From Nocardioides pocheonensis (lineage in GTDB: Bacteria > Actinomycetota > Actinomycetes > Propionibacteriales > Nocardioidaceae): a stretch of 64,000 nt of DNA. The notes beneath the pieces were generated by a model. It was given only the letters and a program-made list of their open reading frames with translations, was not told the origin of the DNA and made no database searches. This document shows positions 31,477 to 34,620 of this stretch, piece by piece. The stretch is taken from assembly GCF_003725535.1 (NCBI RefSeq), contig NZ_RJSF01000048.1:1-64000 (forward strand), read 5' to 3'. The position numbers were made by a program, and so were the translations under genes. Position 1 is the first letter of the stretch, and every line of letters starts with the position of its first letter.

Positions 31477-32139
31477 CTACTTCACCTTGCTGAGATGGAC
31501 CATGGCGTCGTAGAGCTGCTCGTCCGTCATCGGCGGCTCGGGGATCGGATGAGCCCGCTCAGCCCGATAGGCGTCCAGCATGAGGTGGAGCTGGCGTCTC
31601 CAGGCCGTGGGGGCCTTGGCGCTCGTGGCGTCGATGATCCGGCCGTTGGACCAGATGAGGTTGACGATGTCGGCCTGCGTGATGTCGGCGCGAGCCTTGC
31701 CTGCCGCCTGGGCTCGGGTGAGAACGGTCTCGATCTGCTGGCACATCACGTCGTGGATGTGCTCGGTGTGGGCGTTGCCGGGGAAGCGGCGAGAGAGGAA
31801 GTCGTTGAAGCCTCGGTCCCCTGCCTGCACAGCGAACAGGTTCTCCAGGTAGGAGGTGAAGGCGTCCCAGGGATCAACCATCTCCAGGGCCTGGGCGGCT
31901 CCGTCGAGGAAGGCCTGCAGTCGAGGCTCGAGGGCGGCCAGGAGCAGGTCCATCCGTGTGGGGAAGTGGCGATACAGGGTGCCGATGGCGACGTCGGCGT
32001 CGCGGGCGATCTTCTCCAAGGAGGCATCCACGCCGTGGGCGGCGAACTCGGCCTGCGCCGCGGCGACGAGCCGGTCACGGCGCTCCCGGGCGTCGCGGCG
32101 CAGCGACCGCTGCATCGGCGCGACGTCGGTCTGGCTCAC
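31477..32139 (-). CDS. TetR family transcriptional regulator
   Basis: A 220-residue regulator with N-terminal helix-turn-helix (AAQAEFAAHGVDASLEKIARDADVAIGTLYRHFP, about residues 27-61) and an all-helical ligand domain. It is divergent from a 14-helix MFS exporter and is its probable repressor. The GTG start lies 6 nt after minus-strand TAGACT, a leaderless arrangement. Confidence 0.9.
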   Translation of the reverse strand: MSQTDVAPMQRSLRRDARERRDRLVAAAQAEFAAHGVDASLEKIARDADVAIGTLYRHFPTRMDLLLAALEPRLQAFLDGAAQALEMVDPWDAFTSYLENLFAVQAGDRGFNDFLSRRFPGNAHTEHIHDVMCQQIETVLTRAQAAGKARADITQADIVNLIWSNGRIIDATSAKAPTAWRRQLHLMLDAYRAERAHPIPEPPMTDEQLYDAMVHLSKVK

Positions 32140-32145
32140 TCCCCC

Positions 32146-32151
32146 AGTCTA
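32146..32151 (-). promoter_or_regulatory. -10 element of leaderless tetR gene
   Basis: TAGACT on the minus strand ends 6 nt before the GTG start at 32139. Confidence 0.55.
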
Positions 32152-32231
32152 CGACCACGCTGAGGGTGGCCTCCGCTTCGCGTCCTCCGGCGAGCCGCTC
32201 AGCAGTCGATCATCGAGCTTCTCCCTCAATT

Positions 32232-32304
32232 CGAGGCACCCCTCCGGAATAGATCGAGGCACCCCTCCGCTTACACCGGTAACAGTGAACCGGAGGGGTG
32301 CCTC
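32232..32304 (+). promoter_or_regulatory. Triple-repeat control region of the MFS exporter
   Basis: GAGGCACCCCTCCGG occurs at 32233-32247. GAGGCACCCCTCCG recurs directly at 32256-32269, and the exact complement lies at 32290-32304. Either upstream copy can pair with the inverted copy in RNA (15- or 14-bp stem). The inverted copy contains GGAGGGG, the ribosome-binding site of a short leader ORF. Between copies two and three lies TTAC-ACCG-GTAA (32271-32282), a TetR-like half-site pair. The region could be a set of DNA operators, an RNA switch, or both. Confidence 0.75.
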
Positions 32305-32307
32305 ACC

Positions 32308-32346
32308 ATGGCGCTCCGACTTGACCCCCCAGGAGTGAAGAGATGA
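32308..32346 (+). CDS. Putative 12-codon leader peptide
   Basis: ATG at 32308 opens a short frame (MALRLDPPGVKR) whose TGA overlaps the exporter ATG in an ATGA arrangement. GGAGGGG lies 9 nt upstream, a stronger ribosome-binding site than most in the window, and is buried in the inverted-repeat arm. Translation of the leader would feed ribosomes to the exporter start. It is too short to judge by composition, so the support is positional. Confidence 0.5.
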   Translation: MALRLDPPGVKR

Positions 32347-33884
32347 GCACCAACGAGCCCTTCGGGGCCTCCGGCACCTTGGTGGCCCCCGAAGCCGTCG
32401 ACGTGCAGTCCACGGCCCCACCCAACCCCCACCACGAGCGACGCTGGCTGGCGCTCGGCGTCATCCTGATCGCCCAGATGATGCTCCTGCTGGACGCGAC
32501 GATCGTGAACGTCGCTCTGCCCTCGATCCAGGCAGACCTCGGCTTCTCCGACGACACCCGCCAGTGGGTCGTCACTGCCTACCTGCTGGCCTTCGGAAGC
32601 CTGCTCCTCCTCGGAGGACGGCTGGCCGACGCGTTCGGCCGCAAGAACATCTTCATCGTCGGCCTCGTCGGATTCGCGATCGCCTCCGCAGTGGGTGGCG
32701 CGGCCCCCAACATCGAGACGCTCGTCACGGCCCGCGCGGTCCAGGGCGCTTTCGCCGCGGTCATGGCGCCTGCTGCGTTGTCGCTGATCACGGTGATCTT
32801 CACCGACCTGAAGGAGCTGAGCAAGGCGTTCGCGATCTTCGGCGCGGTTGCAGGAGGCTCCTCGGCAGTCGGCCTGATGTTGGGTGGGGTGCTGACCGAC
32901 TATGCCAACTGGCGCTGGACCTTGTACGTCAACGTCGTCTTCGCCGTCGTCGGGATCATCGGTGGCCTCGCGCTGCTGCACAACTCCTCCGAGCCCAACA
33001 GGCCCAAGCTCTCTGTACCGAGCACGATCCTGGGCACCGCGGGGGTCTTCGGGTTGGTCTTCGGAGCATCGAGAGCCGAGACCGATGGTTGGGACGCGGC
33101 AGTCACGCTGACCTCTCTCGTCGCCGGCGGCCTTCTGCTGATCGTCTTCGTCGTGTTCCAGAGGATCGACCGTCACCCGCTCGTCCCGGTGCGCGTGGTC
33201 GCCGACCGCAACCGCGGCGCCGGCCTCCTGACGCTCCTGCTGGGTCAGGCCGGGGTCTTCGCCCTGTTCCTGTTCCTGACGTACTACTTCCAGGGCGTGT
33301 TGGGCTACTCCCCGATCACGACCGGGCTCGCGTTCCTGCCGATGATGGTGACGGTGGCCGTGGTCGCGACGCTGACCCAGAGCGTGCTGGTGCGGCACCT
33401 GACCATGCGCGCCATCGTCGCCGGCGGTTTGACCATCGGCGGAGCCGGGGCGGCGTTGCTGACCCAGGCCGACGCGAGCAGTCAGTACGCGGCCTGGGTG
33501 CTGCCCGGCCTGATCCTGGCCGGGGCAGGCATCGGGTCGGCCATCGTGTCAGCGGTCGCGCTCGCGCAGATGGGTGTCGAACCGCGTGACGCCGGCGCTG
33601 CGGGCGCGCTCAACAACGTCTCGCAGCAGCTCGGCGCGGCGCTCGGCATCGCCGTGATCAGCACCTTCGTCGCCACCGCCCACAGCAACTACCTGGTCGA
33701 CCACGGCAGCGCCGCGGTCGTCGACGCGACCGTGCACGGGTTCACCATCGGCTACTGGTGGGCCGCGGGCGCCTTCTGGGCGGGTGCCGTCATCTGCGGC
33801 GCCCTGATCAGGGGTGGCACTCGGTTCCACACGGAGCCGGGTGAGCCCGAGCCCCTCGACGAGATCGCCGGCGGACTGATCTGA
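32343..33884 (+). CDS. MFS exporter, DHA2 (14-TM) drug:H+ antiporter type
   Basis: A 513-residue transporter with 14 hydrophobic segments. Motifs include LDATIVNVALPSIQADLG (motif D1 of the 14-TM group), GGRLADAFGRKNIFI (motif A) and RAVQGAFAAVMAPAALS (motif B/C region). Such proteins expel drugs or toxic metabolites. AGGAG lies 7 nt before the ATG. The gene is divergent from tetR and is preceded by the triple-repeat leader and the short overlapping ORF. Confidence 0.92.
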   Translation: MSTNEPFGASGTLVAPEAVDVQSTAPPNPHHERRWLALGVILIAQMMLLLDATIVNVALPSIQADLGFSDDTRQWVVTAYLLAFGSLLLLGGRLADAFGRKNIFIVGLVGFAIASAVGGAAPNIETLVTARAVQGAFAAVMAPAALSLITVIFTDLKELSKAFAIFGAVAGGSSAVGLMLGGVLTDYANWRWTLYVNVVFAVVGIIGGLALLHNSSEPNRPKLSVPSTILGTAGVFGLVFGASRAETDGWDAAVTLTSLVAGGLLLIVFVVFQRIDRHPLVPVRVVADRNRGAGLLTLLLGQAGVFALFLFLTYYFQGVLGYSPITTGLAFLPMMVTVAVVATLTQSVLVRHLTMRAIVAGGLTIGGAGAALLTQADASSQYAAWVLPGLILAGAGIGSAIVSAVALAQMGVEPRDAGAAGALNNVSQQLGAALGIAVISTFVATAHSNYLVDHGSAAVVDATVHGFTIGYWWAAGAFWAGAVICGALIRGGTRFHTEPGEPEPLDEIAGGLI

Positions 33885-34002: not shown

Positions 34003-34620
34003 ATGACCACCATCAGCATCATCGGTTCGGGCAACATGGCCACCGCCATCGGCACCCGGGCAACGAAGCACGGCCACACCGTCGAGCTCATGAGCCGCGA
34101 CACCGCCAAAGCCCAGGCACTCGCCGACCAGATCGGCAACGGCGCCACGGTCGGCGCTTTCGGCGCTCGGCCGGCCGGTGACATCGTCATCGTGGCCGTC
34201 CTCCACGCCGCCGCGGCTGGCGTCGTGGCGCACTACGGCGATGCCCTGGCCGGCAAGGTCCTCGTCGACATCACCAACCCGTTCAACGCCGACGCCAGCG
34301 GACTCGCGACCACCGTGGACAACTCGGTGTCCGAGCAGATCGCCGCAGCCGCCCCCGCGGGCACACACGTGGTGAAGGCGCTGAACACGATCTTCGGTCA
34401 CGTCCTTGCTCACGACACGCCGCTGGACGCGTTCCTCGCCGGCGACGGCGCCGAGGCGAAGGCACGTGTCGCGGAGTTCCTGGAGAGCTTGGACCTGCGG
34501 CCCCTCGACGCAGGAGGGCTCGAGATGGCCCACACCCTCGAGTGGGCCGGCATCCTCCTGATGGGCCTGGCACGCAACGGCGCCGGCTTCGACCTCGCCC
34601 TGGGCGCCGAGGTCCGCTGA
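34003..34620 (+). CDS. NADPH-dependent F420 reductase-like oxidoreductase
   Basis: A 205-residue Rossmann protein (ISIIGSGNMATAIGTRATKHGH; LVDITNPFNAD) of the NADP oxidoreductase/coenzyme F420-dependent family. Authentic enzymes pass hydride between F420 and NADP. It follows the MFS exporter by 118 bp, is preceded by GGAGG, and ends at a strong terminator. Whether it uses F420 or only NAD(P) cannot be decided from sequence. Confidence 0.8.
   Translation: MTTISIIGSGNMATAIGTRATKHGHTVELMSRDTAKAQALADQIGNGATVGAFGARPAGDIVIVAVLHAAAAGVVAHYGDALAGKVLVDITNPFNADASGLATTVDNSVSEQIAAAAPAGTHVVKALNTIFGHVLAHDTPLDAFLAGDGAEAKARVAEFLESLDLRPLDAGGLEMAHTLEWAGILLMGLARNGAGFDLALGAEVR

Follow-up and report, generated by a model that had tools for sequence, protein, structure and literature searches.

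The repeats upstream of an MFS exporter gene in Nocardioides pocheonensis are most likely DNA docking sites, or predicted operators, of the TetR repressor encoded beside it, and one of them most likely lies inside an oxidative-stress promoter of the SigR/SigH type. In the reading favoured here, to which a probability of roughly 0.8 is given, this TetR would repress both the SigR/SigH-type promoter of the MFS pump and its own promoter, through sites denoted O1, O2, O3 and OT. The window, meaning the entire 64,000-nucleotide stretch that was analysed, had been reported in a first-pass annotation to contain two direct copies and one inverted copy of a repeat ahead of the exporter, and these were confirmed at 32233-32246 and 32256-32269 (direct) and at 32291-32304 (inverted). 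That annotation allowed for the repeats being either the arms of an RNA switch or the operators of a regulator. The latter possibility is strongly supported by the conservation of the sites beside 50 TetR orthologues, by their form as a dyad with a variable centre, and by their positions inside or over both divergent promoters. Its further suspicion, that the region holds more than a simple TetR operator, was borne out by the finding of four sites and of a promoter of stress-sigma type.

The regulator and the exporter are encoded divergently. The TetR-family repressor gene occupies 31477..32139 on the reverse strand (Pfam TetR_N, 1.1e-10; TetR_C_43, 1.3e-10), with a GTG start codon at 32139-32137, and a gap of 203 bp separates it from the gene for a DHA2/EmrB-type MFS exporter at 32343..33884 on the forward strand (MFS_1, 1.7e-47; TIGR00711, 212 bits, just under the 230-bit cut-off). 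Downstream of the exporter, on the same strand, is a gene for an NpdG-like NADP/F420 oxidoreductase (34003..34620; PF03807, 2.8e-14). Where less than approximately 200 bp separates a TFR from a divergent gene, the TFR is usually the regulator of that gene (PMC3511530). The repressor combines a TetR_N domain, containing a TetR-type N-terminal HTH (PF00440; 41.6 bits, cut-off 24), with an SbtR-like C-terminal domain. Its orthologues, at 71-86% identity, are spread across the Actinobacteria, with close ones in Nocardioides, Marmoricola, Phycicoccus, Frankia, Subtercola, Humibacter, Curtobacterium and other genera, and the recognition helix VAIGTLYRHF is identical in 42 of the 50 orthologues, the rest having only VSIG or VSTG variants.

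The repeats are not attributable to chance, as GAGGCACCCCTCCG has three exact occurrences in the 4.92 Mb genome, all inside these 72 bp, against none for a reversed-pattern control. Both direct copies, O1 (32233..32246) and O2 (32256..32269), have the sequence GAGGCACCCCTCCG on the forward strand, and are identical over 16 nt when extended to 32231 and 32254, at an offset of 23 bp; the inverted copy, O3 (32291..32304, reverse strand), has arms of 15-17 nt. In relatives, the repeat family is not a fixed 14-mer but a GAGG-N4-CCTC dyad, mostly followed by CG (GAGG-N4-CCTCCG), the four central bases of which differ among sites and species, carrying approximately 0.5-1.5 bits per position in OT, O1 and O2. 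Such a small dyad with a free centre is the trace expected of a dimeric DNA-binding protein. The fourth copy, OT (GAGGGTGGCCTCCG, 32162..32175, forward strand), lies over the tetR promoter, and was absent from the first-pass annotation because its centre differs. The variability of the centre also made a single-mismatch search with the 14-mer uninformative, its matches in 148 genomes being mostly at background level.

For the comparison of sites, fifty loci, including that in the window, were oriented and read. A GAGG-N4-CCTC site stands beside the TetR gene in all 50 of these orthologous loci, which share kinship and are not independent, and the unit formed by O2 and its promoter is present in 49. 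The accompanying sites vary: O1 is found in 26 of 49 loci, at a distance from O2 of 23 bp (25 loci) or 22 bp (one locus); O3 in 35 of 49, lying 30-37 bp from O2; and 27 of 49 have an OT-type site in the stretch from tetR to the promoter, which is 25-31 nt from tetR in 24 of those. O1, O2 and O3 occur all together at only 15 of the 49. The site searches required GAGG and CCTC, so it is partly by construction that these letters do not vary in OT, O1 and O3; that the strict pattern was passed at O2 in 49 of 50 loci is itself a result.

What distinguishes O2 is its position within a promoter. In the window, it lies inside the 19-nt spacer between a -35 element, GGAAT (32246..32250, forward strand), which O1 abuts on its upstream side, and a -10 element, CTT (32270..32272, forward strand). 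Across the family, O2 stands between GGAAT (48 loci) or GGAAC (one locus) and a GTT-like trimer in 49 of 50 loci. The -35 element is GGAATA in 47 of these 49, with one GGAATG and one GGAACA, while GTT directly follows CCTCCG in 37, and the two elements are separated by 19 nt in 37 loci and by 18 nt in 12. Published consensus sequences have this same architecture, both for SigR in Streptomyces, GGAAT-N18-19-GTT (PMC9205884), and for SigH of C. glutamicum, GGAAt-N18-19-GTT, where an earlier consensus gave gGGAAta (PMC10012870). GGAAT-N18/19-GTT was found in 43 of the 49 intergenic regions, versus 0.15 expected from dinucleotide shuffles, and GGAAT and GTT flanked O2 in register in 37 of 49 loci, versus none of the 88 sites of the other classes (27 OT, 26 O1 and 35 O3), read on either strand.

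The genome itself points to a sigma factor of this type. Judged from an RsrA homologue (98.6 bits, over the cut-off) and the promoter at its locus, a SigR/RsrA-type pair is probably encoded: GGAAT-N18-GTT occurs upstream in the sigR-rsrA region, and again approximately 60 nt upstream of trxB, which is among the known SigR targets (PMC9205884). SigR is the factor predicted to use the exporter promoter. The window’s own -10 element, like that of a few other loci, is CTT instead of GTT, so this particular promoter may be weak; furthermore, as the operator abuts the -10 element, contacts with the operator may explain part of the conservation of GTT. The composite of the GGAATA type was found in 12 of 197 family genomes, at the locus of this TetR in 11 of the 12, and once in this genome, such that the switch looks local.

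The promoter match also predicts where transcription starts. With the T of GGAAT taken as -31, following PMC10012870, the predicted exporter +1 falls at approximately 32281, hence both upstream arms (32233-32269) would be outside the exporter mRNA, with only the inverted copy inside it, O3 corresponding to approximately +11 to +24 of the predicted transcript. At two loci (L034 and L035), where O2 and the promoter are present, the same rule puts +1 at the npdG ATG, leaving no 5′ UTR, and these npdG mRNAs are therefore predicted to be leaderless. On the opposite strand, a -10 element of the TANNNT type, TAGACT (32146..32151), lies 6 nt before the tetR GTG, giving a predicted +1 of 32139, and most orthologues with an aligned N-terminus have TANNNT at an equal distance from the start codon of tetR. 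The tetR transcript is therefore also predicted to be leaderless, arising from a sigma-A promoter. OT would span approximately -23 to -36 of that promoter, which suggests autoregulation.

Taken together, these features describe a circuit in which the recognition unit of TetR would be the GAGG-N4-CCTC dyad, usually followed by CG, with TetR on O1-O3 blocking the exporter promoter, and TetR on OT blocking its own gene. Mostly, in relatives, the same promoter would drive an NpdG-like oxidoreductase. Expression of the exporter would need the release of TetR as well as an active SigR/SigH-type factor, the latter presumably activated by thiol or electrophile stress. Release might be triggered by an efflux substrate or an electrophile, perhaps sensed via the single invariant cysteine, Cys133 (HDVMC): an HDxMC-type cysteine is kept in 50 of 50 orthologues, and is the sole cysteine in most. 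The cysteines of CssR, a stress-linked actinobacterial TetR, are redox-inactive (PMC8176726), hence Cys133, despite its invariance, is a candidate thiol sensor only as a lead. The most elaborate version of the circuit would be a conserved actinobacterial AND-gate, in which a single-cysteine TetR, sensing thiols or electrophiles and bound inside a SigR/SigH promoter, controls the uncharacterised NpdG-like oxidoreductase as well as the MFS exporter inserted in some lineages, while a 5′-UTR hairpin that has bases in common with O3 adds a further layer; as a whole, this version is speculative, and unlikely to hold in every part.

The hairpin in question, GGGGUGCC-ucaccau-GGCGCUCC (32295..32317, forward strand), appears in the minimum free energy fold of the predicted transcript’s 5′ end, where 32295-32302 pairs with 32310-32317, overlapping O3. 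It raises the possibility of a second, RNA-level layer, in which the 3′ half of O3 pairs with sequence further downstream to give a short hairpin, GGUGCC-N6-7-GGCACC, that acts on mRNA stability or translation. Consistent with this, the centre of O3 is better conserved than those of the other sites, and 22 of 44 loci preserve all six inner base pairs, among them six that have lost O3 (L037, L041, L045, L059, L076 and L086), although part of the hairpin served as the anchor at loci without O3. However, a consensus fold of 47 5′ UTRs gave no common structure, the hairpin is missing from most Microbacteriaceae loci, base changes are mostly one-sided, and the fold found in the window is no better than those of shuffled sequences (z -0.99). 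Such a layer is therefore a tentative addition, with the odds clearly against it. As a separate observation, GGTGCC-N6/7-GGCACC persists just past the predicted start at loci where O3 has decayed (L041, L045, L076 and L086), where it may be an RNA element or the dyad of another protein.

A less probable alternative is that the TetR operators surround an ordinary sigma-A promoter, with the GGAAT and GTT flanks representing an extended operator or UP-type contacts. The divergence of the window’s -10 element from GTT would fit this explanation, as would the TANNNT-like letters following GGAA in some loci, and the fact that O3, in its inverted reading, also ends in GGTT. Yet GGAAT is kept where O1 is absent, and flanks O2 only; the spacer length, 18 or 19 nt, agrees exactly with that published for SigR/SigH; the TANNNT reading breaks down in the loci with the shorter spacer; and a consensus scan for a sigma-70 promoter returned no match here. 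A SigR/SigH-type promoter is hence the better account of these flanks, and the sigma-A explanation is improbable.

The repeats are probably not an RNA switch. The first-pass annotation had proposed that O3 could pair with one or other of the upstream arms, burying the ribosome-binding site of a short coupled leader ORF, and the elements on which this relied are indeed present: a 12-codon ATG frame (MALRLDPPGVKR, 32308..32346, forward strand), preceded by GGAGGGG, has a TGA that overlaps the exporter ATG at 32343. Transcription of the whole region would allow very strong pairing (32230-32345: -50.5 kcal/mol, z -4.4; 32254-32310: -36.1, z -7.5), but strong folding is expected of any inverted repeat. 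At the four central positions, the 35 loci with both O2 and O3 show mismatches and G-U pairs without a single compensating double change, as do the 15 loci in which O1 can be compared with O3, and no more than 15 of the 49 loci combine all three copies. The two loci with predicted leaderless npdG mRNAs nevertheless keep O2 and the promoter. The coupled frame was found in none of the 34 relatives with O3, five of which hit a stop after three codons, and it is probably not a gene; moreover, AGGAG (32331..32335, forward strand), 7 nt ahead of the exporter ATG, provides a separate ribosome-binding site that the repeats do not bury, and makes the exporter independent of translational coupling. Rfam yielded no match over a gathering score, the only hit being a chance-level miRNA match (22.8 bits versus 62). 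With its arms upstream of the predicted start, its pairing uncompensated and its frame not conserved, the switch and its leader peptide were rejected, as very improbable indeed.

The genes behind the promoter differ among relatives. The first is an NpdG homologue in approximately 35 of the 50 loci, and an MFS exporter in approximately 10, the assignment at L062 having been made from gene position. Five loci (L038, L042, L046, L050 and L062) keep an MFS-type leader with npdG approximately 0.16-1 kb downstream, and no full exporter was found in them; these leaders look like deletion scars of an exporter gene. The short gap before npdG behind an MFS-like leader suggests that the exporter was inserted, or lost, between the promoter and npdG. 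Elsewhere, four Frankia/Pseudofrankia loci (L044, L047, L052 and L074) have the exporter promoter approximately 385 bp from tetR, versus mostly 20-150 bp in other loci, with an extra GAGG-N4-CCTC site, GCGAGGGGCRCCTC, between tetR and the exporter promoter. The sole locus of the 50 without the O2/promoter unit, L060 of Herbiconiux ginsengi, keeps an OT-like site only, and no MFS or npdG homologue was found near it.

This arrangement has precedents in its parts. It resembles the thiol-stress promoters of SigR in Streptomyces and SigH in Corynebacterium and Mycobacterium in its GGAAT(A) element, its 18-19 nt spacer and, in most relatives, its GTT, as well as in the RsrA homologue of this genome, where a promoter of this kind precedes both the sigR-rsrA region and trxB; it differs in the CTT of the window, and in having a predicted TetR operator fill the spacer. 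Equally, divergent TetR/efflux modules, such as that of CssR (PMC8176726) and those in a Streptomyces survey (PMC3511530), share the divergent repressor and exporter, the intergenic palindromes and probable autoregulation. However, CssR of C. glutamicum acts on an ABC exporter through one 25-bp site, TAA(G)TG-N13-CA(G)TTA (PMC8176726), whereas the modules described here have short GAGG-N4-CCTC sites, three to four in number, together with a promoter of ECF type and, in most relatives, an NpdG-like first target. The cysteines also contrast, those of CssR being redox-inactive and that of this TetR invariant, if only a candidate sensor. RNA attenuators and leader-peptide switches of resistance genes are similar on paper, through the short frame and alternative pairing, but not in the arms falling outside the predicted transcript, the lack of compensating changes or the unconserved frame. 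A search of the open-access literature returned no description of a TetR with an NpdG-like target, nor of a TetR operator inside a SigR/SigH promoter. Hence the parts are of known kinds, while their combination, for an uncharacterised TetR subfamily, was not found in that literature.

The consequence is that a testable transcription circuit replaces a speculative RNA switch, and the case illustrates how operators at a start site can look like strong RNA hairpins. It also provides a probable binding motif for a TetR subfamily that is found in many Actinobacteria, and lacks a description in the literature searched. Through the circuit, the response to thiol stress would be connected with this TetR regulator, with an MFS pump and with an NpdG-like oxidoreductase.
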